Source: Deltaproteobacteria bacterium
GTDB lineage: Bacteria > Myxococcota_A > Polyangia > JAAYKL01
DNA: 48,898 nt
Reading direction: 5' to 3'
Assembly (NCBI GenBank): GCA_028713995.1
Contig: JAQTNF010000018.1
Span: 1 to 48,898 of the forward strand
The position numbers and the translations under genes were made by a program. Below the pieces are notes generated by a model. It saw nothing but the letters and a program-made list of their open reading frames with translations, ran no database searches and had not been told where the DNA came from. Positions 6,828-39,073 of this stretch are shown piece after piece; position 1 is the first letter of the stretch; every line of letters begins with the position of its first letter.

Positions 6828-6941
6828 TTCGAATTGAAGGCGATCCCGTTTCATTTTGATTGAACACGCCGACCTTCCGGGACAGCCCGAGGTGCAAGTG
6901 CCTGAACTCACATGCATCTTTTCGGTGGCCCGGAAGCTGCT
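6828..6941 (+). promoter_or_regulatory. Sigma54 promoter A with UAS (sigma-factor gene)
   Basis: UAS arms TTCGAATTGAAGG and TTCATTTTGATTGA occupy 6828-6863. GCAAG (6894-6898) matches the GCAAC element in the other promoters. The -24/-12 core TGGCCCGGAAGCTGCT is at 6926-6941, with GG at 6927-6928 and GC at 6939-6940, 12 nt apart as sigma54 requires. The UAS ends 64 nt and the pentamer begins 33 nt before the GG. The predicted transcript start is near 6952, 31 nt before the start codon. Confidence 0.85.
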
Positions 6942-6982
6942 ACAGACGCCCGACGGGGCCACAACACGGCAGGTGCTGACAA

Positions 6983-8236
6983 ATGCAATCAAACGCTTGT
7001 GAAAACGGGATGGCGGCGCAAGACAAGAAAACCTCCTGGCAAGTCCAGGGTCGGCCACGGAGCTCCGGGATCTGTCGCTCGATCACGCTCGATCCGACGC
7101 TCGGCCGGTACTTCCAGGATCTCGCCTTGCACAGCGTCTTCGACGCCGAGGCCGAGGCCGAAAGCATGAAGCGGATGTCGCAGCTCGAAGTCGAGCGCTG
7201 GCGCGTGCTGCTCGGCGAGCCTGCCCTCGCCGGCGCGCTCTCCGACGTGATCCGCGACCAGTTCATGACCGGGCCCGGGGCATGCCCGCCGCCCGACCTC
7301 CGCCCGCTCAAGCGCGCCGCGACGCGCGCCCGGGGGACCGCGAACGCCCGCTACCTCGACGTCGTTTCCCGGCTCTCGCCGGCCCTCCTCGACGCCGATC
7401 CGGATCGCGAGATCGTCGCCGCGGCCCACGAGTCCGCGCTCGCACGCGCCGCCGCCGGTTCATCGCGGCGGGCCCGATGCTTCGCCGCCTACGCCGTCCG
7501 GGTGCGCGCCGCGCTCGCCGAGGTGGAACGGGCGAAACACGAATTCATCCGCGCCAACCTCCGGCTCGTGGTGGTCATCGCGCGGCGCTACGACAAGGGC
7601 AAGCTGCCTCTCATCGATCTGATCCAGGAGGGGAACCTCGGGCTCATCAAGGCCGTCAATCGTTTCGACCGGCGCTACGGCTGCCGCTTCAGCACCTACG
7701 CCTCGTGGTGGATCCGCCACGCCATCGGCCGCGCCATCGCGACCAAGGGCCAGTGCGTCCGCGTCCCGGTGCACACCCTCGAGACCCAGCGCCGGCTGGC
7801 GCGCGTCGAGGCCTCGATGGCCAGGCGCCTCGGCCGGGCACCGACGCCCGAGGAGCTCTCGGACGAGACCGGGCTCCACCCCGGCAAGCTGGCCAAGGTC
7901 GCCAGGCACCGCATGGCGTCGACCTGCTCCCTCGACGGCGGATTCCTGAGTGTCGATGACCGGCGCTACGGTGATCTCCTCGCCGATGAGGAGCACGCGA
8001 GCCCCTTCGACGAGACGCTGCTCGCGGCGTGGCGCGACAAAATGGGCGCGGTTCTCGGCACGCTCACCCCGATCGAGCGCAGCATCATCACCTCGCGCTA
8101 CGGGCTCGCCGACGACAACGTCAGGACGCTCAAGGAAATCGGCGCGTTGTGCAACCTCTCCCGGGAGCGCGTGCGCCAGCTCCAGGAGCAGGCGCTGCGC
8201 AAGATGCGCGACGCGCTCGACATCGACGCCGCTTGA
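6983..8236 (+). CDS. RNA polymerase sigma factor, sigma70 family (RpoD/RpoS-like)
   Basis: The 417-residue protein directs RNA polymerase to promoters. Region 1.2 is seen near the N-terminus (LDPTLGRYFQDLALH). Region 2 includes FIRANLRLVVVIARRYDKG, LPLIDLIQEGNLGLIKAVNR and FSTYASWWIRHAIGRAIA. Region 3 has RRLGRAPTPEELSDETGL, and region 4 has LTPIERSIITSRYGL with the helix-turn-helix TLKEIGALCNLSRERVRQLQ. There is no acidic region 1.1, and a variable 100-residue segment separates 1.2 from 2, so it looks like an alternative group 2/3 factor. A weak AGGTG at 6971 precedes the ATG. The sigma54 promoter at 6828-6941 drives it, implying a sigma54-to-sigma70 relay. No anti-sigma gene is adjacent. 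Confidence 0.93.
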   Translation: MQSNACENGMAAQDKKTSWQVQGRPRSSGICRSITLDPTLGRYFQDLALHSVFDAEAEAESMKRMSQLEVERWRVLLGEPALAGALSDVIRDQFMTGPGACPPPDLRPLKRAATRARGTANARYLDVVSRLSPALLDADPDREIVAAAHESALARAAAGSSRRARCFAAYAVRVRAALAEVERAKHEFIRANLRLVVVIARRYDKGKLPLIDLIQEGNLGLIKAVNRFDRRYGCRFSTYASWWIRHAIGRAIATKGQCVRVPVHTLETQRRLARVEASMARRLGRAPTPEELSDETGLHPGKLAKVARHRMASTCSLDGGFLSVDDRRYGDLLADEEHASPFDETLLAAWRDKMGAVLGTLTPIERSIITSRYGLADDNVRTLKEIGALCNLSRERVRQLQEQALRKMRDALDIDAA

Positions 8237-8255
8237 GCCTTCGCCTGTTCCCGCC

Positions 8256-8369
8256 TTCAAATCGAATGAGATACGCTTCATTTTGATTGGAGAACGCGCC
8301 CAAGCGGCGTCCGCGGAAGGCGCAACCGGCTGAAAACGCGCCCCATCCGTCGGTGGCACGGAAGCTGCT
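8256..8369 (+). promoter_or_regulatory. Sigma54 promoter B with UAS (START/GT operon)
   Basis: UAS arms TTCAAATCGAATG and TTCATTTTGATTGG lie at 8256-8290, one nt shorter than the others and with a final G for A. GCAAC is at 8322-8326. The core TGGCACGGAAGCTGCT is at 8354-8369. GG at 8355 is 65 nt after the UAS end and 33 nt after the pentamer start. The transcript would start near 8380, 32 nt before the gene. Confidence 0.85.
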
Positions 8370-8411
8370 TTTCAACCCCGCTGCGACCCCAGCGTATTTC
8401 GGGAGGTTTGC

Positions 8412-9158
8412 ATGGACAAGAATCAGAGCATGAGCCTCAAATCCGCTGACAAGGAGCGTGCAGAAGGCAAAACCAGGCTGCAACGAGCGCTGCAGGGAGT
8501 GACGGCGCCCGTTGTGATAACGGTCGCCGCGGTGCTTGGACTGGTTGGGGTCGGCGCCACGGCTCGCAAGGACGCGGAAGGGACGATGGTCGTTCCCCAG
8601 GGGTACGACCTGATCAGCGGGGACAACGGGGTGGAGGTCTACCAGAACCGCAATACGGACATCATCGAGCTGCTCGCCCAGGGGCGGCTCCCGGCTTCGC
8701 CACAGGCGGTGATGGCGGGGCTCATCGACTACGAGCATCAGGTCGGCGTCATCGCGCGCGTGTCCGAGAGCCGGATCCTCGAGCGCGGGCCGGACTCAAT
8801 GACCGTCTACCAGCGGTTGAACCTGCCGATCGTGAGCGACCGGGACTACGTGCTCCGCGTCGTCTGGCGCGTGAAGGGCGACAAGACGTGGATCCGCTAC
8901 CACGCCGTCGGCGGTCAGGGACCGGCGCCGGTGGACGGCGTCGTGCGCGTGACGCACCACCAGGGCGGCTGGGACCTGACCGCGGTGGACGGCGGGCGCG
9001 CCACGCTGGCCGTGTTCCACGACAGCATCGACATGGGAGGATTGCTGCCCAAGGCGCTCGCCCGCGCCGGCGCGGGTCGGGAAGTGCCCAGCTTGTACCG
9101 GGACGTGTGCCGCCTGTTGCAGGTCGGCAAGATCACGGGGGTGGCGTCATGTCCGTAG
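8412..9158 (+). CDS. Membrane-anchored START/SRPBCC-domain lipid-binding protein
   Basis: The 248-residue protein has a charged N-terminus, one membrane segment (APVVITVAAVLGLVGVGATA, about residues 31-50) and a START-like domain from about residue 60. The domain signature includes YDLISGDNGVEVYQNRN, then PASPQAVMAGLIDYEHQ and YQRLNLPIVSDRDYVLRV. START domains bind lipids or sterols in a hydrophobic cavity. GGGAGG precedes the ATG. The last 10 nt overlap the glycosyltransferase start, so the pair is translationally coupled under sigma54 promoter B. A role in handling the lipid acceptor or product of the neighbouring transferase is an inference from context. Confidence 0.8.
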   Translation: MDKNQSMSLKSADKERAEGKTRLQRALQGVTAPVVITVAAVLGLVGVGATARKDAEGTMVVPQGYDLISGDNGVEVYQNRNTDIIELLAQGRLPASPQAVMAGLIDYEHQVGVIARVSESRILERGPDSMTVYQRLNLPIVSDRDYVLRVVWRVKGDKTWIRYHAVGGQGPAPVDGVVRVTHHQGGWDLTAVDGGRATLAVFHDSIDMGGLLPKALARAGAGREVPSLYRDVCRLLQVGKITGVASCP

Positions 9159-10345
9159 CAATGCTTCTGACGGCCGTCGGTGCGACCGTGGCCGTCGCCG
9201 CGGCGTTCATCCATTGGCGGCTCGCCGCGGCCCTCGCCCCGCGCGAGGCTTTGCCCAGCCCGGCGGTTTTCCCGTCCATCACGGTCATCCGACCGATCCG
9301 CGGGCTCGACGTGGGCGCCGCGGAGAACATCCGCGCCGCTTTCGTGAACGACTATCCGGGCGAGATCGAGATCCTGTTCGTGTTCGACGACGACACGGAG
9401 CTGGCGCTCCCGCTCGTGCGCGCCGCCATCGAGACCAACGCCGCGTCCGCCGACGCCCGCATCCTGTTCGCCGGGCATCCGCGCCCCGGACGCACGGGCA
9501 AGCTGAACGCCATGATCGCGGGCCTGCGCGCGGCCCGCGGCGAGCTGGTGGCGTTCGTGGACTCCGACACGCGGCCCGGTCCGCATGCGCTCACCGCGCT
9601 CGTGGACACGCTGCTTTCCGATCCGGGCGCCGGGGCGGCGTTCGCCCCGGTCGTGGCGACGTCGACCCCGCAAACCGCGGGAGACACCGGCTACGTGCTG
9701 CTGCTCAACGGGTTGTACGGGCCCGAAGCGGCGTTCGCCGCCAAGCGCAAAGACTGGGAGCTGCCGTTCATCATGGGGCAGTTCATGATCTTCCGGCGCT
9801 CGGCGATCGCCGCGATCGGCGGCCTGGAGTGCGCCGACGGCCAGCTCGTGGACGACATGTACCTCGGCGCCCGCCTCCACGCCGTGGGGCTGCGAAACCG
9901 CGTGTCGCCCGAGGCGGTGCCCATCATCGAGGGAGGACTCGGGCTGCGCGAGTTCTGGCAGATGTACGTGCGGTGGATCGCGTTCTCCCGCACGGGGCTC
10001 GCCGGACTGTCGGCCAAGTGGCTCTCCGTCGCGCGCGGAGCGCTGTTCTGGATCGGCTTTCTCGCCGCCATCGCGGCGTCGCTGCTCGGGCATCCGCTGG
10101 TCGCGGCCGTGAACCTCGTCGGCGCCGCCATCGTGTCGGCGAGCGCCATCGAGCTGCACCACGCGCTCGGCGGCGGACGCGTCACGGCGCGGCTCGCGTG
10201 GGTCTCGTTCATGCTCCTCCTGGTCGCGCCGGTCGTCCTGTTCGTGACGTACTCGCATCGCGAAGTGAGCTGGCGCGGCCGCACCTACCGGCTGAACGCG
10301 GAATCGCGGCTGGCCGAGGAGCGGGACCCGACGCTGGCGGCGTGA
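9149..10345 (+). CDS. Ceramide-glucosyltransferase-like family 2/21 glycosyltransferase
   Basis: The 398-residue protein has an N-terminal membrane helix, a GT-A catalytic domain and C-terminal membrane helices. Visible motifs are ITVIRPIRGLD, the DDD of VFDDDTEL, FVDSDTRPGP (the D-x-D metal/nucleotide motif), DGQLVDDMYLG and Q-M-Y-V-R-W (the QxxRW motif of processive and ceramide-type GT2/GT21 enzymes). The tail VSWRGRTYRLN is typical of GT21-like and HpnI-type enzymes. The likely reaction is transfer of a sugar to a membrane lipid on the cytoplasmic face. The start ATG at 9149 overlaps the START gene; a longer in-frame extension upstream lies within that gene and is rejected. It converges on the GH38 gene. 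Confidence 0.85.
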   Translation: MSVAMLLTAVGATVAVAAAFIHWRLAAALAPREALPSPAVFPSITVIRPIRGLDVGAAENIRAAFVNDYPGEIEILFVFDDDTELALPLVRAAIETNAASADARILFAGHPRPGRTGKLNAMIAGLRAARGELVAFVDSDTRPGPHALTALVDTLLSDPGAGAAFAPVVATSTPQTAGDTGYVLLLNGLYGPEAAFAAKRKDWELPFIMGQFMIFRRSAIAAIGGLECADGQLVDDMYLGARLHAVGLRNRVSPEAVPIIEGGLGLREFWQMYVRWIAFSRTGLAGLSAKWLSVARGALFWIGFLAAIAASLLGHPLVAAVNLVGAAIVSASAIELHHALGGGRVTARLAWVSFMLLLVAPVVLFVTYSHREVSWRGRTYRLNAESRLAEERDPTLAA

Positions 10346-10366
10346 CAGAGTCCCGTCGAGCGCATC

Positions 10367-12802
10367 CTAGAACAGCAGCCGCACGCTCACGATGGCGCCG
10401 TCGACCGGCACGACCGCGGCGCCGTCTTCCACTCGCAGCTCGCTCAGATCGCGTTCCCGGGCGTCGCACAGCCGGGCCGCCCGGACGGGCCGCGCGGCGC
10501 ACCGCACGCGGACGACGACGGACCCGCGACCGAAGCCGCCGAGGCGCACGATCACGCCGGCGCCGCGGTCGGCCGGCTTCACGGCGGCCACGCGGACGTC
10601 GTCGCGGTCGCACGTCACGACGGCGTCGGCGGCCGCGTCCAGGTCGGGCGTCGCGGGCGCGAACCACGCGGTTCCGAGCGCCTGGCGCGGCTGGATCGGG
10701 AGCTTGTTGTCGAGCACGTCCCCGGCCCGCGTGAACCACACGGCATAGTCGAAGGTGTGCTCGTCGGGGTCGGTCCCCGAAGCCGGGTGCGCGAGCAGCG
10801 GAAGCACGAGGAACGCCCGTTCCCTGGGAACGTTGCGAAGGGCGACCCACTCCAGCGCGCCGTTCTCGCGCAACGTGGCGCACGCGGGTCCCCCCAGGAA
10901 CGCGGCCATGCCCCGGCCGCCGCGGCCGTGGTCGTGGGCAAAGACGAAGTTGCGGGCCGGCCAGAACGTCGGCGAGTACAGCTTGTGCGCCGGGCGCTCG
11001 ACGACCCCGCCCGGGACGTCCATCGTCAGCCGGTCGGCAACGAGCGTCGTCGGGAAGCGGCACGTGATCGTGCGCCGCCTCGCCGCGGCCCCCACGATGC
11101 GCAGGCGGATGATGGGCGAGTCGTCGCGGAACCACAGGAAACGCACGAACGGGCGCCCTTCGAGCCGCGAGTCGACGCGCACTTGCAGCACGCCGTCCTC
11201 TTCGATCGCCCGGACCGTGGCCGGCTGGCGGCTCGCGCACGCGACCTCGCGCAGCACGCCGCCGCGGTACTCGTGGCCCATGCGCCACAGGCCGCCCGAG
11301 TCGCGGTAGGCGACGAGATCGTTCGCCGGACCGGAGATGAGCGAGCGGCCGTCTTCCGCCCGGTCGAGGACCGTGATGCAGCCGCCTGCCGCCGCGCTCA
11401 GCACCACCTTGTAGTATCGCGTCGTCACTTCGACGCGGCCGTCGGCGAGAGTCCACTGCGGCGGCTCCCCGTGTGAGGGCGCGGGCGGGGCCTGGCGCGT
11501 CGCGCGCACGCGGGCGAGCGCGCTGTCGGCCAACCCTTCGGCTTCGGTCAACCATGGCCCCTGCTCCGCGTGCCATACGCGGTCGGGCGCCGTGCCCGTG
11601 ACGAAGTCGTGGTGGTTGCTGACGATCAAGAGGTCCCACGCCGCTCCGATCTCGCGGCGCAGCTCGGGGTCGGGCGAATCCGTGGAGCCCGGGGCGGGCA
11701 CGGCCGTCAGCTTTTCGAGCAGCACGAGCTTGCGGCCGATGCGGTTGCACCGCACCTTGATGTCCGGCCGGCTGGCGTAGAACCCCATCCAGTACGGGTT
11801 CGGGTCGAACGTGAGCGTCGGGAGCCGCGGGCGGTAGTGATCCACGAGGGTCATGTAGTCGTCCATGCCGGCGTTGACCGCCCACACGCCGGTCTCCTGG
11901 TAGTGCGTGCGGTTGTAGCGGTCGAGCAGCCCGACGAGCCCGTGGATGGGGCCGTTGAAGTCGCACCCCATGGGGCAGAACAGGTACGGAGTGCGGGCCA
12001 GCGGTCGAAGCTGCCGCACGAACGCCCGCACCCGCCGCGCGATGTGGCGCCTCGTGCGCCACGACATCCCGAAGACGACGCCCATCCAGCGGATGACGCC
12101 CACGTGCGCGAGCATGTCTCCCTGGAAGTACGTGAACGCGTTCCAGTGGCACAGCACCTCCGCGCCGTCCGGAGCGCGCCACACGAAGTCGACAGTCCGC
12201 AGGTCGCGCTCCAGCAGCTCGGCGCTGGAGCCGGGCAGCGGGAACGCCTTTCGCCTGCGATAGTCCGTGGCCACGAAATACATGCCGTCGATGCGCGTGA
12301 TGGCGGCGTGGTCGAAGCCCAGCGCCCGCAGCATGCTGGGCAGCGCCGGCGAGTGTCCGAAGTCGTCCGGCAGATAGGCGAGACGCGGCTCGGGCGTCAT
12401 CCGCCGCGTGCGCAGCCACTCCTGGCCGTCCAGGTAGTCGCGCAGGATGAGCTCCGTGTCCGGCAGCACCGTGTCGGGGGTGGTGATGCCCGTGCCGGTC
12501 AGGCGCAGGCGGCCGTCGTTGACGAGCTGCCGCAGGATTTCGCGCTGGTCGGGCCGCCGCTCCCAGTAGCGTCTCAGAAAGAACAAGGCCTCGACCGAGA
12601 AGATGCGCCGCGGCTCGGCAACGAGCGCCGCGATGACCTCGTCGAGGATGCGCTCGATGCGACGGCCGTAGTATTCCTCGGACGTGAACAGCCAGTTCGG
12701 ATCCCAGTGGCTCGATTCCCCGAAAATCAGCACGGATTCGGCGTCCGTGGGAATGCCAAGGCGCGCGCGAAGGGCGGATTCGTCGGCGTTCATGTGAGTC
12801 AT
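10367..12802 (-). CDS. Glycoside hydrolase family 38 alpha-mannosidase-like enzyme
   Basis: The 811-residue protein carries GH38 hallmarks: an N-terminal zinc-binding segment ESSHWDPNWL (H32, D34), LAYLPDDFGHSPALPSML containing the probable nucleophile Asp in the D-x-FG-x-S context, and SNHHDFVTGTAPD, matching the HHDAVTGT zinc/active-site motif of class II mannosidases. The C-terminal half is the beta-rich GH38 domain. No signal peptide is visible, so it is probably cytoplasmic. The start at 12802 (MTHMNADES) is used; ATG 12793 is an alternative and neither has a clear ribosome-binding site. It sits on the opposite strand within the sigma54 island and has no sigma54 promoter of its own. Confidence 0.85.
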   Translation of the reverse strand: MTHMNADESALRARLGIPTDAESVLIFGESSHWDPNWLFTSEEYYGRRIERILDEVIAALVAEPRRIFSVEALFFLRRYWERRPDQREILRQLVNDGRLRLTGTGITTPDTVLPDTELILRDYLDGQEWLRTRRMTPEPRLAYLPDDFGHSPALPSMLRALGFDHAAITRIDGMYFVATDYRRRKAFPLPGSSAELLERDLRTVDFVWRAPDGAEVLCHWNAFTYFQGDMLAHVGVIRWMGVVFGMSWRTRRHIARRVRAFVRQLRPLARTPYLFCPMGCDFNGPIHGLVGLLDRYNRTHYQETGVWAVNAGMDDYMTLVDHYRPRLPTLTFDPNPYWMGFYASRPDIKVRCNRIGRKLVLLEKLTAVPAPGSTDSPDPELRREIGAAWDLLIVSNHHDFVTGTAPDRVWHAEQGPWLTEAEGLADSALARVRATRQAPPAPSHGEPPQWTLADGRVEVTTRYYKVVLSAAAGGCITVLDRAEDGRSLISGPANDLVAYRDSGGLWRMGHEYRGGVLREVACASRQPATVRAIEEDGVLQVRVDSRLEGRPFVRFLWFRDDSPIIRLRIVGAAARRRTITCRFPTTLVADRLTMDVPGGVVERPAHKLYSPTFWPARNFVFAHDHGRGGRGMAAFLGGPACATLRENGALEWVALRNVPRERAFLVLPLLAHPASGTDPDEHTFDYAVWFTRAGDVLDNKLPIQPRQALGTAWFAPATPDLDAAADAVVTCDRDDVRVAAVKPADRGAGVIVRLGGFGRGSVVVRVRCAARPVRAARLCDARERDLSELRVEDGAAVVPVDGAIVSVRLLF

Positions 12803-12832
12803 ACTACCACGGGGATCGCGCGCGGACAGCAA

Positions 12833-12848
12833 TGGCACGGAAACTGCT
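12833..12848 (+). promoter_or_regulatory. Sigma54 core promoter C, no UAS
   Basis: TGGCACGGAAACTGCT, with GG at 12834-12835 and GC at 12846-12847, is a near-perfect -24/-12 core differing from the regulon consensus by one base. Neither the UAS 65 nt upstream (that stretch lies inside the GH38 coding region) nor GCAAC 33 nt upstream is present. The predicted transcript start near 12859 coincides with the ATG at 12860. Confidence 0.6.
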
Positions 12849-12859
12849 TGAAAACATGC

Positions 12860-13516
12860 ATGACGAATCGTTCGCGACCTCTCACCCTGTGGCATGTCCC
12901 TTGGCTTTTCGGGATCGCGATCCTCCTGACGCAAGCCCGATGGGTCGTCGCGAGCGAGACGCCACCCTGCGGCGCAACAAAGGCCTTGCCTCCCGTCCTC
13001 GATCCGGCCTGCCGCCATCGAAAGGATCTCCAGGCCGAGCTGTCGCTTTTCGGCGGGAGCTATCTCGGGGCGTCTCTCGGCAAGAGCTTTCTCGCAGGCG
13101 GCCGATCGTACTTCCACATCGACCGGATGTTCGCCGTCGGAGCGAGCTATGGCTTTACACGATTGTTCATCGGTAACCGCCGCTTCGGCGAGACCATCGA
13201 GGATCGCAACGTCCACCTGCTGTCCGGGGAGCTCGCGATCTCGAACGACATCGCGATGCGCATGGGCCGGCAGCTCCTGGAGATGGACCTCTACCTCACC
13301 TTGGGGGCCGGCGCGCTGCGGCTGAACGAGGAGTGGGAAGCGCTCGGGGTCCTCGGCGGGGGAGTGAAATTCTACACGGGCCTGCCCTGGCTTGCGGTTC
13401 GCCTCGACGTGAACACGGACATGCACGGCACCCACGGCGCGTTCGACGCCGACTTCACCGTGGTCGCCGGCCTTTCCCTCCTGTTCCCGGCTCGGCCCTC
13501 GCCGCTCGGGCACTGA
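12860..13516 (+). CDS. Outer-membrane beta-barrel domain protein
   Basis: The 218-residue protein starts MTNRSRP, followed by a hydrophobic signal core (WLFGIAILL) and cleavage near WVVASETPP. The mature part alternates short hydrophobic strands and turns (AELSLFGGSYLGASLG, FAVGASYGFTRLF, MDLYLTLGAGALRL, TVVAGLSLLF), typical of a small barrel. A much longer in-frame ORF extends upstream on this strand through the antisense of the GH38 gene and is rejected because the signal peptide fixes the start. The sigma54 core at 12833-12848 would give a transcript beginning at or next to the ATG. No Shine-Dalgarno sequence is present, so translation may be leaderless. Function within the regulon is unknown. 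Confidence 0.75.
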   Translation: MTNRSRPLTLWHVPWLFGIAILLTQARWVVASETPPCGATKALPPVLDPACRHRKDLQAELSLFGGSYLGASLGKSFLAGGRSYFHIDRMFAVGASYGFTRLFIGNRRFGETIEDRNVHLLSGELAISNDIAMRMGRQLLEMDLYLTLGAGALRLNEEWEALGVLGGGVKFYTGLPWLAVRLDVNTDMHGTHGAFDADFTVVAGLSLLFPARPSPLGH

Positions 13517-13553
13517 GCCTGGCGCGACAAATGATCCACGGCCGTCGCTCCCC

Positions 13554-13668
13554 TTCGAATTGAAGGAGGAGCTGCTTCAATTTGATTGACCGCACAACCG
13601 TCCGGGCATCACCGCCGGCCGCAACCTCCCGAAAGCACGCTCCGTGCATCGATGGCACAAAAGCTGCT
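13554..13668 (+). promoter_or_regulatory. Sigma54 promoter D with UAS (alarmone synthetase operon)
   Basis: UAS arms TTCGAATTGAAGG and TTCAATTTGATTGA are at 13554-13589, GCAAC at 13621-13625 and core TGGCACAAAAGCTGCT at 13653-13668. The UAS ends 65 nt and GCAAC begins 33 nt before GG 13654. The predicted start near 13679 opens with CTGACTTTCGG, the same initial sequence as the transcript from promoter F. Confidence 0.87.
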
Positions 13669-13680
13669 TGGGTGACGTCT

Positions 13681-13772
13681 GACTTTCGGCCCCGGTGAGC
13701 ATGGGTGGGGCCATCCGAGCAACGAGGGTTTGCCTTCGGGGCCAAGGCGGGTGCTCACCGGATCCGAAAGTC
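13681..13772 (+). promoter_or_regulatory. Long inverted repeat in the 5' leader of the alarmone synthetase mRNA
   Basis: GACTTTCGGCCCCGGTGAGC plus A (13681-13701) pairs with TGCTCACCGGATCCGAAAGT plus C (13752-13772), matching at 19 of 21 positions and enclosing a 50-nt GC-rich loop. It begins within a few nucleotides of the predicted transcript start and ends 43 nt before the start codon. This could form a stable 5' stem affecting mRNA stability or translation. No known riboswitch or leader family is recognised. Confidence 0.6.
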
Positions 13773-13815
13773 GCCATGATGACATCCGTGGAGGCTCACG
13801 CAGGAGGAGGCCCAC

Positions 13816-14370
13816 ATGACCTTCGCAATCGAGACGGTTTCCGGTCCGAATCCGTTTTCCGAAAGCCTCGACGACTACAGGACCCTATTCATGTGCTTCG
13901 CGATCGCCTATGCGACCCGCCTGGAAACGCTGGCCCAGATGCTTCGGCGTGTGTCCGTCATCGCCCGGGAGGTCGTGCCGCGCGCCGAGATCCATGGGCG
14001 GGTCAAGAGCCTCCGGTCGACCCTGCACAAGGTGCGCAGGATCCACCCCGACCACGGCCGGGTCCTGGATTCCGTCGGAGTGCGGATCATCGTGCCCAGG
14101 ACCCGGGACTGCTACGGTCTGTTCGAGCGATTTCGCAGCGCATTCGAGGTCGTTCCGGGCGAGGACGACGACTACATCAGGAACCCGAAGCCCAACGGAT
14201 ACCGGGGCCTGCACACCACCGTCGTCGGCCCCAACGGGCAGATGGTGGAAATCCAGCTTCGGACGAGGTGGATGCATGCGATCGCGGAGCAGGGTACGGC
14301 CGCGCACTGGCGGTACAAGCAGCTGCGCGCGCTCCCTGTAAACTTCAAGAAGGACGAAGCACACCAGTAA
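13816..14370 (+). CDS. Synthetase-only RelA/SpoT-domain (p)ppGpp synthetase (small alarmone synthetase)
   Basis: The 184-residue protein is essentially one RelA/SpoT synthetase domain making (p)ppGpp from ATP and GTP/GDP. Visible motifs are [35 protein letters not shown], the signature [38 protein letters not shown] and HWRYKQ. There is no HD hydrolase, TGS or ACT domain, so degradation must come from another enzyme. GGAGGAGG lies before the ATG. It is the first gene of a likely operon with wrbA (10 nt downstream) and a Cys-rich secreted protein, behind sigma54 promoter D and a structured leader. Alarmone synthesis under sigma54 control is the notable point. Confidence 0.9.
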
Positions 14371-14380
14371 GGAGGAAGCC

Positions 14381-15001
14381 ATGAAAATCCACGTCGTCTT
14401 CTACAGCACGTTCGGCCACGTCCATCAGCTCGCGCAGGCCGTCGCCGACGGAGCGCGATCCGTGAACGGGGCTGATGTGAAGCTCTTCCAGACCGCCGAG
14501 CTCATGCCGGAAGAGGCGCTGAAAAAGAGCGGGGCCATGGTCGCGAGGCAAGCATTTTCCCATGTCCCGGTGATCGCCGCCGACGAGCTGGCCGAAGCGG
14601 ACGCCATCATCTTCGGCACGCCGACGAGGTTCGGCATGATGGCGGCGCAGATGCGCAACCTGCTCGATCAGACCGGCCCGCTCTGGGCGAAAGGGGCGCT
14701 GGTCGACAAGGTCGGAAGCGTGTTCACGTCCACCGCGACCCAGCACGGCGGACAGGAGACCACCATCACCAGCTTCCACGCGACCCTGCTGCACCACGGC
14801 ATGATCGTCGTCGGCGTGCCTTATTTGGAGAACGGGATCAGCACGATGGAGGGGATCTCCGGCGGCGGGCCCTACGGCGCATCGACCGTGACCGGTCCGG
14901 ACGGATTGCGCAGACCGAGCGAGAACGAGCTCGGCGTCGCCCGTTTCCAGGGAAAGCACGTGGCCGAGATCACGAAGGCCCTCGTGCAGGGCCGGAAATA
15001 G
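14381..15001 (+). CDS. wrbA: WrbA-family NAD(P)H:quinone oxidoreductase
   Basis: The 206-residue flavodoxin-like protein begins [20 protein letters not shown], giving the FMN phosphate loop, and contains the WrbA signature [19 protein letters not shown] followed by [14 protein letters not shown]. It also has the [11 protein letters not shown] and GGPYGASTV segments. WrbA enzymes reduce quinones by two electrons, protecting against redox cycling. Length is typical (about 200). TAAGGAGG precedes the ATG. It is the second gene of the sigma54 operon starting at 13816, linking alarmone synthesis with oxidative defence. Confidence 0.92.
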
Positions 15002-15013
15002 AGGACCAAAGGA

Positions 15014-15532
15014 ATGGGACGGGCTTCACACGTGTCTAGGTGGCGCTCCGAACGTCTGTATGCGCCGTTCCCCGCATGCGTCATGGCGTTGCAGATCTGC
15101 GCCTGCCAGGACCTCGCCATGGCTGACGAGAGTGCGCCCGATACGCCCCCCACAACCCAATCGATCGATTCGACCGGAACCGGGAACCAGGGTGAACCCC
15201 CCGACAATGCGTTGCGAGGCGCCTGCTCCGAGGCGGATCGCGTGGAATATGTTCATGATCCCAATCCGGAATTCATCAGCAAAGTGCGAGCATGCAGCAG
15301 GGAGACATGGGCCAACAAAGTCAAAAACATTGCGTGTCTCAAGAAGGCCATGCCATCGCTTTCATCCGGTTGTGCGGCCTGCTTCGCAAACATGGCAAGC
15401 TGCTCCCTGGAAAATTGCGCAATGCCATGTCTGTTCGGCTGGCTGAGTGACATCTGCGTAAACTGCGCGAACGCCAATTGCCAGGAAGCTCTTGTCAAGT
15501 GCACGGGAGTGGCCCGCGCCGATCTGCCCTGA
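15014..15532 (+). CDS. Cys-rich probably secreted protein, unknown function
   Basis: The 172-residue protein follows wrbA by 12 nt and is probably co-transcribed. GAGGA at 15002 supports the ATG at 15014. A basic N-terminus, a hydrophobic stretch (PACVMALQICACQ) and an AMA-DE site suggest export, though the signal is atypical. A Thr/Pro/Ser-rich linker follows. The C-terminal domain holds about a dozen cysteines in a dense pattern (SGCAACFANMASCSLENC, MPC, DICVNCANANC, VKC). Such patterns fit disulphide-stabilised folds or metal binding. I do not recognise a family; the context suggests an envelope stress role. Confidence 0.6.
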   Translation: MGRASHVSRWRSERLYAPFPACVMALQICACQDLAMADESAPDTPPTTQSIDSTGTGNQGEPPDNALRGACSEADRVEYVHDPNPEFISKVRACSRETWANKVKNIACLKKAMPSLSSGCAACFANMASCSLENCAMPCLFGWLSDICVNCANANCQEALVKCTGVARADLP

Positions 15533-15546
15533 TCTGCCGTTCCCTT

Positions 15547-15661
15547 TTCAAATTGAAGGAAAGCCGTCTTCATTGTGATTGACCAGGACCGGTTCTTCGT
15601 GACCCTCCGCAACGCAACCACCCGAACCTGCTGGCGTCTCGCCGATGGTCCGGAAGCTGCT
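15547..15661 (+). promoter_or_regulatory. Sigma54 promoter E with UAS (multicopper oxidase operon)
   Basis: UAS arms TTCAAATTGAAGG and TTCATTGTGATTGA lie at 15547-15582. GCAAC occurs at 15614-15618 (another copy at 15609). The core TGGTCCGGAAGCTGCT is at 15646-15661. GG 15647 is 65 nt after the UAS end and 33 nt after GCAAC. The predicted start is near 15672, 49 nt before the ATG. Confidence 0.85.
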
Positions 15662-15720
15662 AAGGACGCGTCCCGAGCGGAAGAGCTCCACCTGAAATCG
15701 ATGAACAAGGAGAAAATGAA

Positions 15721-18700
15721 ATGAACGGTCGCAGGAAATGGGGACTTGCCATCGTGCTCATGATGTTGGGTTGTGCCGGGACCGACAGCGGCGATTCGCG
15801 CGTCACCGGTGCGGATAGAGCATCCGCCGCCGCGCGCGCCGCCGCGCTGGGCCTCAAACCGGGCGTGTCCGGGAGGGCGGCCAACGGACCCGCGGCGATG
15901 CCGCCACCGGCGCTCGATCCCGGCGGGATTCCGCATTACTTCGGGCCGTACGCGAACTATGCCTACAGCCCGCTCCCCAAGGGGCCCATCACCGGAATCG
16001 CGCTTGACGTCGGGGGCAGCGGCTACGCCGCTCCGACCGTCACGATCTCGGATGTCTACGGCACCGGCACCGGCGCCACGGCCACGGCGACCTTGACCGG
16101 GGACGTGATCACCGCCGTCAACCTCACGAACCCGGGCACGGGGTACAGCGCCCCGATCGTGTTCATCAACGATACCACCGGCACCGGCGCCGTTGCCGTG
16201 GCGACCGTCGGAGATACGCCCGGCTCGCTCTCAGGCGGCCTCCGGAAGTTCGTGAACGCGCTGCCGGGGCTCTACATCTCGGGCGTCACGGACCCGGGCT
16301 CCAATTTCAAGAACGAGAACGGGCAATACATCCCCGTGGCCGTCCCGGAGAGCTGCACCTACTCCGGCCAGCAGGCGGATTGCTACGTCATCGAGCTGGT
16401 TGAGTACCGCGAGCAGATGCATGCGGATCTTCCCCCGGTTGTCGGGACATGGCCCAATCAGACGGGTGGAACCCTGCTGCGCGGTTACATGCAGACCAAT
16501 ACGACCGATCCCCTTGTGAAGGTGCCGCATTACATGGGGCCGATCATCATTGCGCAGAAGGACAGGCCCGTCCGGATCACGTTCAAGAACATGCTTCCCA
16601 CCGGAGCCGACGGCAACCTCTTCCTGCCCGTGGACACCACGGTCATGGGAGCGGGGATGGGCCCCCTCGACATGATGGGCATGCCGGGGATGAAGGAGAG
16701 CTACACGCAGAACCGCGCCACGCTGCATCTCCATGGCGGCCTGGTTCCATGGATCAGCGACGGCACCGCCCAACAGTGGACCACCCCGGCGGGAGAGACC
16801 ACGCAATACCCCAAGGGCGTCGGCGTGTACAACGTCCCCGACATGCCGCATCCCGGGACCGGCGCCGTACAGGGAGAGCTGACCTTCTATTACAACAACG
16901 AGCAGAGCGCGCGCCTGATGTTCTACCACGACCACGCCTTCGGCATCACCCGCCTCAACGTCTATGCCGGCGAGGCGGCGGGATACCTGCTGACGGACCA
17001 GGCCGAGCAGGACCTGATCAACGGCACCAACGTGACCGGCGCCAATCCCACCTCGTCGAAGGTTCTTCCCGACGTCGGGATCCCCCTCATCATCCAGGAT
17101 CGATCCTTCGTGGACCCGACCACGCTCGCCGCGCAGGATCCGACCTGGCCGTTTACCCCGCACGACGGCGACCTGTGGTATCCGCACGTCTACATGCCGA
17201 ACCAGAACCCGGCCGATCTGGGCGGCATGAACGCCTTCGGCCGCTGGCATTACGGCCCTTGGTACTATCCGCCGACGACGACCATCGCCCACGGGCCCGT
17301 TCCGAACCCCTACTGCCTGCCCACGCCTCCCGCGGCCGGGACCTATCCGAACGGACCGTACGATTGCAGCGCGGCGCCGTGGGAGAATGCGTACATGCCC
17401 GGATCGCCCAACCCTTCCATTGCGGCCGAGGGGTTCATGGACACCCCCATCGTCAACGGCGCGGCCTACCCCTATCTGGTGGTGGACCCCAAGGCGTACC
17501 GCTTCCGCATCCTGAACGCCGCGGACGACCGCTTCTGGAACCTGCAATTCTACGTGGCGGATCCGACGGTCACCACTTCGGACGGCAGGACCAACACCGA
17601 GGTCAAGCTCGTTCCCTATCCCGCCGGGGCCACCGGATACCCGGTGGACTACGTCGTGGCGGATCCGACCACGGCGGGCCCGTCGTTCATCCAGATCGGG
17701 ACCGACGGCGGCTTCCTGCCCAAGCCGGCGGTGTTGCCCAACAAGCCCGTCGCCTGGAACGGCGATCCGATGGCCTTCGATTTCGGGGTCGTGAACCAGG
17801 GGACGCTGATCATGGCCCCCGCGGAACGCGCCGACGTCATCGTCGACTTCTCCGCCTATGCCGGCAAGACCTTGATCCTGTACAACGACTCGCCCGCGCC
17901 GTTCCCGGCGATCGATTATCGCTATGACTACTTCACGGGCGGGCCGGACAACACGGCCACGGGCGGCACGCCGCCGACCCTGCCCGGATACGGTCCCAAC
18001 ACCCGCACCATCATGCAGATCCGGGTCAACGGCTCGACGCCGGCTCCCGCGTACGACCTCGCCGCGTTGCAGGCGGTTTTCGCCAAGACCGCCGCGAAGA
18101 GGGGCGTGTTCGAGGTCTCCCAGGCGCCGATCGTCGTGCCGAACACCCGCTACGACTCGGCCTACGACGCGACGTTCCCCAGCGTCAACGCCACCGCGGC
18201 CAGGATCTACGACACGGCCAAGACCTTCTCCACCATCTCCGGAACGACGCTGACGCTCCCGTTCCAGGGCAAGACCGTCATGGACGCGATGAGCGAGGTG
18301 TTCGACGACTACGGCAGGATGAACGGGATGCTCGGGCTGATGAAGACGGCGCTGCCGGGGTTCATCCCCTATCCCTACACCTCCCCGCCCGTGGACATGG
18401 TGAAGTTCTCCATGACGCCCATGACCGAGCCCTCGCCCGGCGACAACACACAGATCTGGAGAATCAATCAAAACGGCGTGGACACCCATTCGATCCATTT
18501 CCATCTGTTCAACGTACAGCTCGTCAACAGGGTCGCCTGGGACAACGCCGTGCGGCTTCCCGACGCCAACGAGCTGGGCTGGAAGGATACCCTCAGGATG
18601 AACCCGCTCCAGGATGCGATCGTGGCGTTGAAACCGGTTGCGCCCCTGCACCAGCCCTTCAAGGTTCCCAACAGCGTGCGCACGATCGACCCGACGATGC

Positions 18701-19503
18701 CGGAGAACTCCACTCTCGCGGGACCGCTGCCGGATGGATTCCAGGATCCGACGGGAACACACGTCTCCATCGCCAACAGCAGAATCAACTACGGTTGGGA
18801 GTACATGTATCACTGCCACATCCTCGGTCATGAAGAGATGAACATGATGCATAGCGTCGTCGCCCTGATGCCGCCCGAGGCGCCTTCCGGGCTGAACGCC
18901 GCGCTGACGAACGGGACCGCGGCCTTGACCTGGACGGACAACTCCCTCGATGAGACGGGCTTCAAGGTCGTGAGAGCCACGGACGCCGGCTTCACGACGA
19001 ACGTCGTGACCAGGACGCTTGCAGCGGACGCGACGGCCTACACCGACACGAGCGTCGCGGGCAACAAGACGTACTACTTCAAGGTGCTCGCCACCAACGT
19101 GGTCGGCAGCACGGCGGCGTCCAACTTCACGCAGCCCGCGGCGCCGGGCTTCCCGACCATGAGCGCGGACTCGGAGCCCTCCAACACGGCCTCGTTGACG
19201 GTGATATCCGCTCCGACCAACCTGACCGCCAAGCTGTTGGCAGGTCCGTCGCGCGTTCGATTGGCGTGGACGGACAACGCCACCAATGAGACCGGGTACA
19301 GGATCGAGCGGCGTGTCAACGGCGGCGCCTTTACGCAGATCGCCGCGCCGGGACCGCGAGCCGGAACAGGGAACGTAAGCTACACGGACAACAACGTGAC
19401 AATCGGCGCGACGTACGCCTATCGGGTGCGGGCGGCGAGCGCGAGCGGGTTCTCGGTCTACTCGAACACCGCGGCCATATCACGTGTCGGATTTACAAAA
19501 TAG
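15721..19503 (+). CDS. Large multicopper oxidase lipoprotein with two fibronectin type III domains
   Basis: The 1260-residue protein has a lipobox (LMMLGC). Residues about 95-170 hold two GSGY/GTGY-type repeats (GGSGYAAPTVTI, NPGTGYSAPIVFI). All copper ligands of a laccase-type oxidase are visible: HLH at 336-338, HDH at 403-405, H-S-I-H-F-H at 923-928, and H1031-C1032-H1033 with H1037 and axial M1042. The trinuclear and type 1 sites are therefore intact, so one-electron oxidation with O2 reduced to water is expected; the substrate (metal ion, phenol or other) cannot be read. FN3-like domains follow at about 1050-1140 and 1160-1258. It precedes a cytochrome c lipoprotein and a beta-barrel. 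Confidence 0.93.
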   Translation: MNGRRKWGLAIVLMMLGCAGTDSGDSRVTGADRASAAARAAALGLKPGVSGRAANGPAAMPPPALDPGGIPHYFGPYANYAYSPLPKGPITGIALDVGGSGYAAPTVTISDVYGTGTGATATATLTGDVITAVNLTNPGTGYSAPIVFINDTTGTGAVAVATVGDTPGSLSGGLRKFVNALPGLYISGVTDPGSNFKNENGQYIPVAVPESCTYSGQQADCYVIELVEYREQMHADLPPVVGTWPNQTGGTLLRGYMQTNTTDPLVKVPHYMGPIIIAQKDRPVRITFKNMLPTGADGNLFLPVDTTVMGAGMGPLDMMGMPGMKESYTQNRATLHLHGGLVPWISDGTAQQWTTPAGETTQYPKGVGVYNVPDMPHPGTGAVQGELTFYYNNEQSARLMFYHDHAFGITRLNVYAGEAAGYLLTDQAEQDLINGTNVTGANPTSSKVLPDVGIPLIIQDRSFVDPTTLAAQDPTWPFTPHDGDLWYPHVYMPNQNPADLGGMNAFGRWHYGPWYYPPTTTIAHGPVPNPYCLPTPPAAGTYPNGPYDCSAAPWENAYMPGSPNPSIAAEGFMDTPIVNGAAYPYLVVDPKAYRFRILNAADDRFWNLQFYVADPTVTTSDGRTNTEVKLVPYPAGATGYPVDYVVADPTTAGPSFIQIGTDGGFLPKPAVLPNKPVAWNGDPMAFDFGVVNQGTLIMAPAERADVIVDFSAYAGKTLILYNDSPAPFPAIDYRYDYFTGGPDNTATGGTPPTLPGYGPNTRTIMQIRVNGSTPAPAYDLAALQAVFAKTAAKRGVFEVSQAPIVVPNTRYDSAYDATFPSVNATAARIYDTAKTFSTISGTTLTLPFQGKTVMDAMSEVFDDYGRMNGMLGLMKTALPGFIPYPYTSPPVDMVKFSMTPMTEPSPGDNTQIWRINQNGVDTHSIHFHLFNVQLVNRVAWDNAVRLPDANELGWKDTLRMNPLQDAIVALKPVAPLHQPFKVPNSVRTIDPTMPENSTLAGPLPDGFQDPTGTHVSIANSRINYGWEYMYHCHILGHEEMNMMHSVVALMPPEAPSGLNAALTNGTAALTWTDNSLDETGFKVVRATDAGFTTNVVTRTLAADATAYTDTSVAGNKTYYFKVLATNVVGSTAASNFTQPAAPGFPTMSADSEPSNTASLTVISAPTNLTAKLLAGPSRVRLAWTDNATNETGYRIERRVNGGAFTQIAAPGPRAGTGNVSYTDNNVTIGATYAYRVRAASASGFSVYSNTAAISRVGFTK

Positions 19504-19598
19504 CGACAGGGCGTCGCCGCGCCGATGCACGGGCGGCAAGTTGAGCAAATGAGCCGAGAGACAACGTTGGGAGGAACAACTTCCAGAAGGAGGAACCC

Positions 19599-20066
19599 AT
19601 GAAGATGCGAATCCATGTGCCAGGAATTCTGTCGATGAGCACGTCCCTCGCCGCGGCGGCATTGCTCGGGGCATGTGCCCCGACCTCGGGCGGGACGCCG
19701 CCTCGCTCCGCGGCCGTTCCCAAGACGGTCGAGAGCCAGGTGGCGGAGGGGAAGGCGCTCTACGGTCAGCGTTGCGCCGGCTGCCACGGCGATGGCGGCC
19801 AGGGCACGGACAAGGCGCCAGCCCTGGTCGGCGCCGGGGCACTGCCGCTCGATCCCCCCGCGGAGCGGAAGTTCCGGAAGACGCAGTTCAAGACCGCCCT
19901 CGATGTCGCTGACTTCGTCGTCCCCAACATGCCGCCGCCGCCCAAGGAGAAGCTCACCGAGGAGCAGTACTGGTCGGTGCTGGCGTTCGATCTGCAGGCG
20001 AACGGCGTCGCGCTCAAGGAATCCGTGGGGCCAGACAACGCGGCCGCGCTGGTGCTTCACCCTTGA
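19599..20066 (+). CDS. Monohaem c-type cytochrome lipoprotein
   Basis: The 155-residue protein has a lipoprotein signal (AAALLGAC) and one haem-binding CAGCH motif in LYGQRCAGCHGDGGQGTD. NMPPPP, about 60 residues later, provides the probable axial Met in the usual class I context, and the terminal helix LTEEQYWSVLAFDLQ is typical. GAAGGAGG precedes the ATG. It lies 95 nt after the multicopper oxidase with no promoter seen between them, so it is likely in the same sigma54 operon. Its stop overlaps the next gene's TTG start. It may pass electrons to or from the oxidase. Confidence 0.9.
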   Translation: MKMRIHVPGILSMSTSLAAAALLGACAPTSGGTPPRSAAVPKTVESQVAEGKALYGQRCAGCHGDGGQGTDKAPALVGAGALPLDPPAERKFRKTQFKTALDVADFVVPNMPPPPKEKLTEEQYWSVLAFDLQANGVALKESVGPDNAAALVLHP

Positions 20067-20773
20067 ACGCCCGCGGCACCTCGCTCATCGCAGCGTTCGT
20101 GATCCTCGCCTCTGCCGCGCCGCTCGCCGCGCAGGACGCCGCGGCGCAGCGGCCCAAGCGGGAACAAGCCGGCGAGGGAGAAGGGGGGAAGGACGGGCAC
20201 GACTTCGCCTGGTTCTCGGTGGCGCCCGAGGTCGGCTATGCGTACTTCGCGCCGGCCACCATCACGGTGATGGGCTTCGACTTCCGGGTCGAGCCGCGCA
20301 GCAGCGTCGTCGTCAAGGCGCACCTCGATCTGGGCGGGGACGGCCTCGCGTTGGAGCTCGCCCCTCTGTATTCATGGGAGTGGGGAAGCGGGACCTTCGG
20401 CAACTTCAACGCGCTCGGCGCGGAGCTCACGTTCGCGTGGCGCTTCAGGGTCGGGAGCTTCTACCCTGGCCTGGGCCTCGGCCTCCACTGTGCGTACATC
20501 ATGGGTGACGACATCTCGTCCGGCGCCGAGTGCTATGGGCGCCTGCCCGTGGGCTTCACCTGGTACTTCGCCGAGTACGCGGCGCTCGTCTTCGAGGTGG
20601 GGCTCATGTACGGAGGCACCGGCATACGCGCCAGGAAGCTCGTGGTGGATGTCGTCCCGTCGCCGAGCGGCCAGGAAAGCGCACAACAGGCCGCGAACGA
20701 CGCCCTCGCGTCCAACGTCTCGTTCGGCACCGGGTTCGCGGTGGACGTGATGCTCGGATTGCGCTTCCCGTGA
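20063..20773 (+). CDS. Outer-membrane beta-barrel-like protein
   Basis: The 236-residue protein starts at a TTG whose last bases form the TGA stop of the cytochrome gene, giving tight translational coupling. The N-terminus is a signal peptide (SLIAAFVILASAAPLAAQ), then an acidic/basic low-complexity stretch. The mature region alternates amphipathic strands (APEVGYAYFAPATITV, ALELAPLYSWEWGSG, PVGFTWYFAEYAALVFEVGL) and ends in a strand finishing LRFP, with Phe near the C-terminus as in barrels recognised by BAM. Together with the cytochrome and multicopper oxidase it may form an envelope redox module; that is an inference. Confidence 0.72.
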   Translation: MNARGTSLIAAFVILASAAPLAAQDAAAQRPKREQAGEGEGGKDGHDFAWFSVAPEVGYAYFAPATITVMGFDFRVEPRSSVVVKAHLDLGGDGLALELAPLYSWEWGSGTFGNFNALGAELTFAWRFRVGSFYPGLGLGLHCAYIMGDDISSGAECYGRLPVGFTWYFAEYAALVFEVGLMYGGTGIRARKLVVDVVPSPSGQESAQQAANDALASNVSFGTGFAVDVMLGLRFP

Positions 20774-20779
20774 TCCCTC

Positions 20780-20870
20780 TCAAAATGATTGATTATCCGG
20801 GTGTCTCGACACGGCAACGGCCGCAACCCACCGAAAACACGCCCCATGCGCCGATGGCACGGAAGCTGCT
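20780..20870 (+). promoter_or_regulatory. Sigma54 promoter F with half UAS
   Basis: Only a right-arm-like half site, CAAAATGATTGA (ending 20792), is present, because the left arm would overlap the preceding gene. GCAAC is at 20823-20827 and the perfect-consensus core TGGCACGGAAGCTGCT at 20855-20870. Spacings of 64 nt and 33 nt to GG 20856 match the other promoters. No gene starts within 300 nt downstream until sod, which has its own promoter, so this promoter appears to serve a non-coding leader. Confidence 0.75.
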
Positions 20871-20880
20871 TGTAAATTAC

Positions 20881-21035
20881 GCTGACTTTCGGGCGGGGAG
20901 CACGAACGGGGCGAGCCGGGCACAGGGACGAAGAGCTTTTCGGTTGTTGGAAGAGCATCATCGGTCTGGGGGGGGCATCACCTGTGTGCGCGGCAAGGGA
21001 TCATTTCATGAGATGCATGTTCATCTCCAACCTCC
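20881..21035 (+). ncRNA. Putative sigma54-dependent small RNA or orphan leader
   Basis: Predicted transcript from promoter F. It opens with CTGACTTTCGG and stays recognisably similar for about 50 nt to the leader from promoter D (shared CTGACTTTCGG, GAGCA and GGGGC blocks in order). The distal pairing arm of the D hairpin is missing. I see no credible coding frame with a ribosome-binding site and no clear U-tract terminator, so the 3' end is arbitrary here; readthrough into sod is possible. The 20774-21183 interval otherwise holds only promoters F and G. Confidence 0.3.
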
Positions 21036-21149
21036 TTCAAGTTGAAGGAGATCCGACTTCATTTTGATTGAACAAAGCGGTCCCCCGGAACCGCCTGCGA
21101 TGCAACTGATTGATTTCATATGCGTCTCTTCGGTGGCCCGATAGCTGCA
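21036..21149 (+). promoter_or_regulatory. Sigma54 promoter G with UAS (sod-usp operon)
   Basis: UAS arms TTCAAGTTGAAGG and TTCATTTTGATTGA are at 21036-21071, GCAAC at 21102-21106 and core TGGCCCGATAGCTGCA at 21134-21149. The UAS ends 64 nt and GCAAC starts 33 nt before GG 21135. The predicted start near 21160 leaves a 24-nt leader containing AAAGGAG. Confidence 0.85.
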
Positions 21150-21183
21150 ACGGCCGCGTGTCGTTGAGGGAAAGGAGAAACCC

Positions 21184-21807
21184 ATGTCAGAGACAAACAC
21201 GTTCTATGAACTGCCCAAACTCGAGTACGAATACAGGGATCTGGCTCCGTACATGTCCGAGGAGCAGCTGCGAATCCACCACGGGAAGCATCATCAGGCG
21301 TACGTGAACGGCGCCAACGGGATCCTGCAGAGGCTCGACAAGGCGCGCAAGGAGAACGCCGAGCTGGATCTGAAGGCGACGTTGAAGGAGCTGTCCTTCA
21401 ACATCGGCGGACATCTGCTGCACTCGCTCTTCTGGGGCAATCTCGCGGCGGAGGGAAAGGGAGGCACCGGGCCCGGCGGGCGGCTGGCCGACGTCCTCAC
21501 CAAGGAGTTCGGAAACGTCGACAGGTTCAAGAAGGAATTCATCCAGGCCGCGGTCAGCACCGAGGGCTCGGGCTGGGCCGCGCTGACCTATTGCCGGCAG
21601 ACCGCGCGGCCGATCATCATGCAGGTCGAAAAGCACAACACCAATGTCTACCCGATGTTCACCATCCTCATGGTGGCCGATGTCTTCGAGCACGCGTACT
21701 ACATCGATTACAAGAACGATCGCGCCAAATACGTCGACGCGTTCTTTCACGTCGTGAACTGGAGCGCGATCGAAAGAAGGCTCGAGAATCTGCTCGGGCA
21801 AAAATAG
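21184..21807 (+). CDS. Fe/Mn superoxide dismutase
   Basis: The 207-residue enzyme dismutates superoxide to O2 and H2O2. Metal ligands are visible as H32 in [17 protein letters not shown]80 in [13 protein letters not shown], and D166 and H170 in [15 protein letters not shown]. The last motif has Phe where DVWEH is usual. The GGHLLHS-FW wording resembles Fe-type enzymes of archaea and some bacteria, but metal choice cannot be decided from sequence. No signal peptide is present, so it is cytoplasmic. AAAGGAG precedes the ATG. A UspA protein follows after 32 nt, both behind sigma54 promoter G. Confidence 0.94.
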
Positions 21808-21839
21808 CGAACACAGGGACGAACACAGGAGGACAGGAC

Positions 21840-22283
21840 ATGTTTGCACCGAAAATCATTCTCGTTCCCACCGACTTCTCGGAGCACTCCGACGAGGCCA
21901 TCAAGCAGGCCGTCGACATCGCGGAGCAGAACGACGCCAAGATCTATCTGCTGCACGTCATCGACAAGCTGCAGCAGTGCGCCGTCGACTACTGCATCTC
22001 GATCGAGACCATGCAACAGGTCCAGGCGGAGAGCGAAAAGGAGGCGACACGGAAGATGAAGGAGGAGGTCCGGAAGATCGCGCAGTCGAGGAAAGTCGAC
22101 GTGACATTCGACGTCAAGGGCGGGGTTCCCTACGCCGAGATCCTGAGGCAGCAGGAGGACAGGAAAGCGGACCTCATCGTGATCGGCTCCCACGGCAGGA
22201 CGGGTATCATGAGGACCCTCATCGGGAGCGTCGCCGAGAAGGTCATGCGCGAATCGAAGTGCCCGGTCCTCCTCGTCCGCTAG
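21840..22283 (+). CDS. Universal stress protein, UspA family (ATP-binding type)
   Basis: The 147-residue single-domain protein begins MFAPKIILVPTDFSEHSDEA and ends with GSHGRTGIMRTLIGS followed by VAEKVMRESKCPVLLVR. The G-x2-G-x9-G-S motif is complete, so it should bind ATP like the MJ0577-type proteins. CAGGAGG lies before the ATG. An upstream in-frame extension overlaps sod in another frame and is rejected. Co-transcription with sod under a sigma54 promoter fits a stress-response role, but no specific partner is known. Confidence 0.93.
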   Translation: MFAPKIILVPTDFSEHSDEAIKQAVDIAEQNDAKIYLLHVIDKLQQCAVDYCISIETMQQVQAESEKEATRKMKEEVRKIAQSRKVDVTFDVKGGVPYAEILRQQEDRKADLIVIGSHGRTGIMRTLIGSVAEKVMRESKCPVLLVR

Positions 22284-22338
22284 CCGAGACGGCAACGGTC
22301 GTCCGCACGGCCGAAAAAGCGCGCGGCGGGGGACAGCC

Positions 22339-22432
22339 CTTCATTTTGACTGAACCGACAAACCGTCAAATGCGCTGTCGTTTCGCAACAGACCGGAAGC
22401 ATTCACTTCTCACCGATGGCACGGGGGCTGCT
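22339..22432 (+). promoter_or_regulatory. Sigma54 promoter H with right-arm UAS (radical SAM operon)
   Basis: Only the right arm, CTTCATTTTGACTGA (22339-22353), is clear; the left arm has decayed. GCAAC is at 22385-22389 and core TGGCACGGGGGCTGCT at 22417-22432. The arm ends 65 nt and GCAAC begins 33 nt before GG 22418. A start near 22443 excludes the GTG at 22441 as a start codon. Confidence 0.8.
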
Positions 22433-22470
22433 ACTCACCTGTGCAGGCGGCGCGCCAAAGGAGCGAGAAC

Positions 22471-38849: not shown

Positions 38850-39057
38850 GATTCACGATTGTAGCCCCGGAAAGCCGGACCGACCAAGCGGTTGTTGCGG
38901 CTGTTGCGGCGCGCTCGTACGCACGTTTTCCTTGGGACGGTCCGGACACGGTGTGTCTCGCTGAATTGGCGCGCGCCGGCGTCCCGGGATATAAACAAAG
39001 GGGACTCAAGCCTCGCAACCCGTGGAAAGTCCAGGCATCGCGCCGGAACAAGCGTTG

Positions 39058-39073
39058 CGGCACGGTGTTTGCT
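39058..39073 (+). promoter_or_regulatory. Sigma54 core promoter upstream of Cu/Ag efflux operon
   Basis: CGGCACGGTGTTTGCT has GG at 39059-39060 and GC at 39071-39072, 12 nt apart, and carries the full TTGC -12 element. The UAS and GCAAC of the 7-22 kb regulon are absent at the matching distances, so another activator would be needed. The predicted start near 39084 leaves a 31-nt leader before a small ORF. Confidence 0.65.

Follow-up and report, generated by a model that had tools for sequence, protein, structure and literature searches.

The window considered here, a stretch of 48,898 nucleotides, contains a series of sigma54 promoters that share a short element between the upstream enhancer (UAS) and the core, and the question raised by this locus is what kind of factor reads that element. 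The seven promoters with a UAS all have a sigma54 -24/-12 core with GG-N10-GC, and in each of them a pentamer begins 33 nt before the first G of GG, being GCAAG at 6894 and GCAAC at 8322, 13621, 15614, 20823, 21102 and 22385. These coordinates and the fixed distance, as given in the first-pass annotation, were exact and far above chance: the window contains GCAA[CG] at 0.0018 per strand-base, and none of 5000 shuffles placed one and the same pentamer in register in six of the seven spacers (shuffle maximum of 3). The pentamer taken as a unit held for its position and not for its extent, the conserved unit being the longer CAA-N4-Y(T/C)G(A/G)A at an offset of -31 from TGG. An alignment of 19 promoters gives CAA, four free bases and Y(T/C)G(A/G)A as the conserved pattern. 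The leading G of the pentamer is dispensable, with CCAAG found twice and GTAAC once in the genome of the window, and GTAAC, ACAAC and CCAAC among the variants of its relatives.

The full motif, YAA-N4-Y(T/C)G(A/G)A, is the reverse complement of the IHF consensus WATCARNNNNTTR, i.e., YAANNNNYTGATW, and GCAAC is the GTTGC edge of a predicted IHF site, read on the other strand. The earlier statement that the pentamer is unlike a standard IHF site was wrong because of this identity, the seven window sites matching 6-9 of 9 consensus positions with a single 9/9 copy at 21103, and the suggestion of a DNA-bending site made in the same annotation is supported, as a predicted site. No other perfect match in the orientation of the 21103 copy occurs within the 48.9 kb window, and a single one in the opposite orientation lies at 6987. 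The other sites of this genome score mostly 6-8/9, and of 2000 permuted consensuses none fit its promoters as well as the true IHF consensus; the same test was weaker in family f4, where 143/2000 permutations were equally good. Functional IHF sites in the sigma54 promoters of Desulfovibrio vulgaris score 67-78% (PMC3897727). The W-A of WATCAR is mostly altered, with TGAA in place of TGAT. The IHF site H' of lambda attP, TATCAATTTGTTGC, shares the TCAA-N4-TTG core, and its GTTGC is the reverse complement of GCAAC; however, H' is a recombination site with an A-tract, whereas the copies in the window, and those in GC-rich genomes, have none. In H' the six A stand eight bases before TATCAA, and nearly the same spacing is found in the AT-rich genome G005 of the same family, with a six-A tract seven bases from the TTTCAA of the element.

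All the promoter parts listed here lie on the + strand. The promoter of the sigma70-family gene at 6983 has UAS half 1, TTCGAATTGAAGG (6828..6840, called from sequence), UAS half 2, TTCATTTTGATTGA (6850..6863), the IHF-like element CAAGTGCCTGAAC (6895..6907, directly after the G at 6894; 7/9) and the core TGGCCCGGAAGCTGCTA (6926..6942). The next three promoters consist of UAS half 2 TTCATTTTGATTGG (8277..8290), element CAACCGGCTGAAA (8323..8335, 8/9) and core TGGCACGGAAGCTGCTT (8354..8370); UAS half 2 TTCAATTTGATTGA (13576..13589), element CAACCTCCCGAAA (13622..13634, 7/9) and core TGGCACAAAAGCTGCTT (13653..13669); and UAS half 2 TTCATTGTGATTGA (15569..15582), element CAACCACCCGAAC (15615..15627, 6/9) and core TGGTCCGGAAGCTGCTA (15646..15662). 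A weak UAS half 2, CTCAAAATGATTGA (20779..20792), precedes the element CAACCCACCGAAA (20824..20836, 7/9) and a second core of sequence TGGCACGGAAGCTGCTT (20855..20871). The perfect element CAACTGATTGATT (21103..21115), the reverse complement of WATCARNNNNTTR, lies between UAS half 2 TTCATTTTGATTGA (21058..21071) and the core TGGCCCGATAGCTGCAA (21134..21150), 5' of an Fe/Mn superoxide dismutase gene, and the last promoter has UAS half 2 TTCATTTTGACTGA (22340..22353), element CAACAGACCGGAA (22386..22398, 6/9) and core TGGCACGGGGGCTGCTA (22417..22433).

The enhancer of these promoters is in two parts, TTCAAATTGAAGG-N6/7-cTTCATTTTGATTGA, with the half TTCATTTTGATTGA beginning 75-77 nt before TGG; it is present at all seven, weakly at 20855, and a block resembling UAS half 1 is found 5' of many, not all, regulon promoters. 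Two subclasses can be distinguished between 6926 and 22433, GCAACC..GAAAnCACG with TGGCACGGAAGCTGCTT and GCAAGT..GAACTTG with TGGCCCGGAAGCTGC, which possibly correspond to a promoter duplication or to a graded response. The pentamer had been described as absent from the two cores without a UAS, at 12833 and 39058, and this is correct at the 33-nt distance. The core at 12833 has no copy of the element; however, the one at 39058 has GCAACCCGTGGAAA about one helical turn farther upstream, where a degenerate and weak IHF-like element, CAACCCGTGGAAA (39016..39028), has its CAA at 39016, a gap of 30 instead of 19 and a G in place of the T of YTGA. Its putative core, CGGCACGGTGTTTGCTT, is weaker (CGG), and both lie 5' of an OEP/HlyD/RND efflux operon.

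Twelve more regulon promoters were found in the genome of the window, eight on contig C76 and one each on C1, C55, C168 and C171, and 11 of them have the element in register as GCAAC, GCAAG, CCAAG or GTAAC, the copy on C55 being 1 bp nearer. In a search for the enhancer plus core over 318 genomes of the class, the set was found mainly in family f4 and in genome G193 of family f28. The element in f4 is mostly TGCAACTACCTGAACTTGCTTGC at an unchanged distance, with some 1-2 bp shifts that displace the motif as a unit, and the conservation there reaches into CTTGCTTGCRTCT, beyond what the contacts of Escherichia coli IHF predict, with CTTGCTTGC as the extra conservation outside the IHF core. Two f28 promoters match the motif poorly. 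The promoters adjoining the activator orthologues carry the element too, so that conservation in orthologous promoters, the check proposed by the first-pass annotation itself, was obtained both in another family and beside the activator orthologues. A looser GCAA plus core pattern was also tried in the relatives and discarded, as its matches were mostly coding background. The divergent partner promoters L067:1381 and L090:1194 have a sigma54 core and a clearly degraded element (4-5 of 9).

Outside the regulon, CAACNNNYTGAW was searched at 4-34 nt before sigma54 cores in the 318 genomes, giving 29 distinct matches, and in 23 of them CAAC-N3-YTGAW is placed either 16-19 or 27-30 nt ahead of the core, two distances that differ by one helical turn. 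Because these windows were picked on the CAAC data themselves, a second search was done with TAAC, permitted by the TTR rule of IHF, and placed 25/30 matches inside those windows (binomial p = 7e-11). For GAAC, barred by the rule, the figure was 4/12, no better than chance, and the phasing of CAA and TAA but not of GAA agrees with the rule (pyrimidine-A-A on the other strand). The raw number of CAAC matches was not clearly above that of a reversed-pattern control, which gave many matches, and thus the evidence is the clustering of positions and not the counts. The enhancer was absent from the 16 CAAC promoters examined outside the regulon, and in 15 of them a codon that could start an open frame lies within ~70 nt of the core. 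G005 has TAACCACCTGAAA and CAACCACTTGAAA at -30 and -31 of two sigma54 promoters, the one with CAACCACTTGAAA sitting behind a different upstream repeat, and no activator match at E<=1e-100; the element is not specific to the UAS or to its XylR-like activator. The sigma54-like cores of G023 and G047 have no clear element at -31. At L198 of G005 (contig C145), a sigma54 promoter is located behind the repeated AATTCGCGGAATACCG, a possible unrelated enhancer.

The reading that we consider highly probable is that the element is a predicted IHF bend site between enhancer and sigma54 core, which would help an upstream activator to reach the sigma54 RNA polymerase. IHF would bind the spacer between the two-part enhancer and the -24/-12 core and bend it sharply, and the enhancer-bound activator, a putative XylR_N/V4R/AAA+/Fis-HTH enhancer-binding protein encoded elsewhere in the genome, would then meet the polymerase on the correct helix face, with a presumed effect on transcription. 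Such a bend must set the correct face and would therefore require an element fixed within ~1 bp or shifted by a whole helical turn, which may explain both the rigid spacing and the 11-bp alternative position. The genome of the window has six HU-family (PF00216) genes, including an IHF-alpha candidate adjoining pheT, over the NF001401 cut-off (118.1 vs 111), and an IHF-beta candidate with IHF-beta models as best match, although below their cut-offs (105.9 vs 115). The latter retains the IEIRGFGSF stretch of E. coli IHF-beta, whose Glu and Arg (E44, R46) determine the TTR preference.

The lack of an A-tract in the GC-rich copies, the use of TGAA over TGAT and the conservation of CTTGCTTGC in f4 would also be compatible with a specialised IHF or another HU-family protein. 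A wider proposal, tentative and on balance unlikely, is that a class-wide, helically phase-locked element reaching beyond the IHF core (YAACNNNYTGAAATTG...) may be read by an IHF variant or other HU-family dimer specialised for sigma54 promoters, the bend position being part of the promoter definition. Less probable is a different lineage-specific bending or accessory protein, an HU-family paralogue or other factor, that would read the longer motif YAACNNNYTGAAATTGCTTAG and act like IHF: the six HU-family genes, the f4 conservation past the IHF core and a GAAATTG extension, preferred in the phased matches of other families, are consistent with it, but core, spacing and pyrimidine rule all equal those of IHF, and IHF-alpha/beta candidates are encoded. 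That the same activator makes a second contact here, an option raised in the first-pass annotation, is now very improbable, since promoters without a UAS share the element at the same or a helically phased distance, including one in the same-family genome without an activator match at E<=1e-100. The regulon members all lie within 1 bp of one position, and some copies form an imperfect inverted repeat, CAAGT-N6-ACTTG, as such a contact might; however, the element is unlike the TTCAAATTGAA palindromes, and the repeat is missing in about half of the copies, for which reason it was also rejected as the site of a dimeric factor. The least probable is an UP-like or upstream contact of the sigma54 RNA polymerase (alpha C-terminal domain) in place of a bender. 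It would suit an element that adjoins the core and is class-wide, but the rigid CAA-N4-YTGA, the pyrimidine-only first base and the 11-bp alternative are more in keeping with a sequence-specific protein than with an AT-rich UP element.

The predicted IHF site has precedents in other bacteria. The Pu promoter of the TOL plasmid of Pseudomonas putida has two enhancer sites for XylR, one IHF site and a -24/-12 core (PMC3900584), and the promoters described here similarly combine an XylR_N-type candidate activator, two upstream sites, one IHF-like site in the spacer and a -24/-12 core. They are unlike Pu in their enhancer sequence, in their stress-type targets and in that ~19 promoters have the IHF-like site within ~1 bp of one position. 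In D. vulgaris orp1/orp2, an IHF site also lies between enhancer and sigma54 core (PMC3897727), that of orp2 in the same orientation and near -43 (PMC3897727); orp1/orp2 is a single divergent locus with an experimentally tested site, whereas the window sites are predicted from sequence. The kind of element and the order of enhancer, IHF site and sigma54 core are already known in other bacteria, and the phase-locked geometry is new, the position appearing unusually fixed and, at unrelated promoters within the class, helically phased. A literature search returned nothing direct on IHF-sigma54 helical phasing, nor on IHF with enhancer-binding proteins in Myxococcus. In this way, a pentamer without explanation becomes a testable IHF site, and many genomes provide sequence evidence that IHF-like sites keep a fixed helical phase relative to the -24 box. 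The sigma54 stress regulon of a class with many uncultured genomes has a Pu-like architecture, and in GC-rich genomes, in which the core alone is ambiguous, the phased motif offers a way to recognise real sigma54 promoters.

The likely activator of the regulon is encoded at L052:3711-5378 on contig C76, a protein of 556 aa with XylR_N, V4R, sigma54-interaction (AAA+) and Fis HTH domains that would bind the enhancer, also present directly 5' of its own start. Orthologues are found in the 10 other genomes of f4 and f28 with confirmed enhancer matches (~78-88% identity, some as fragments), and across several families of the class the protein is mostly 80-84% identical over its length, a conservation so high that the regulon may have been transferred horizontally. 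Contig C36 of the same genome has another, partial copy (88%). By gene content the regulon looks like a general stress set. Its genes, at 6983-24737 of the window and in L052 on C76, include those for a sigma70-family factor, superoxide dismutase, universal stress protein and pirin, as well as a flavodoxin-fold quinone reductase, multicopper oxidase, cytochrome c, RelA/SpoT-domain protein and PAS hybrid kinase.
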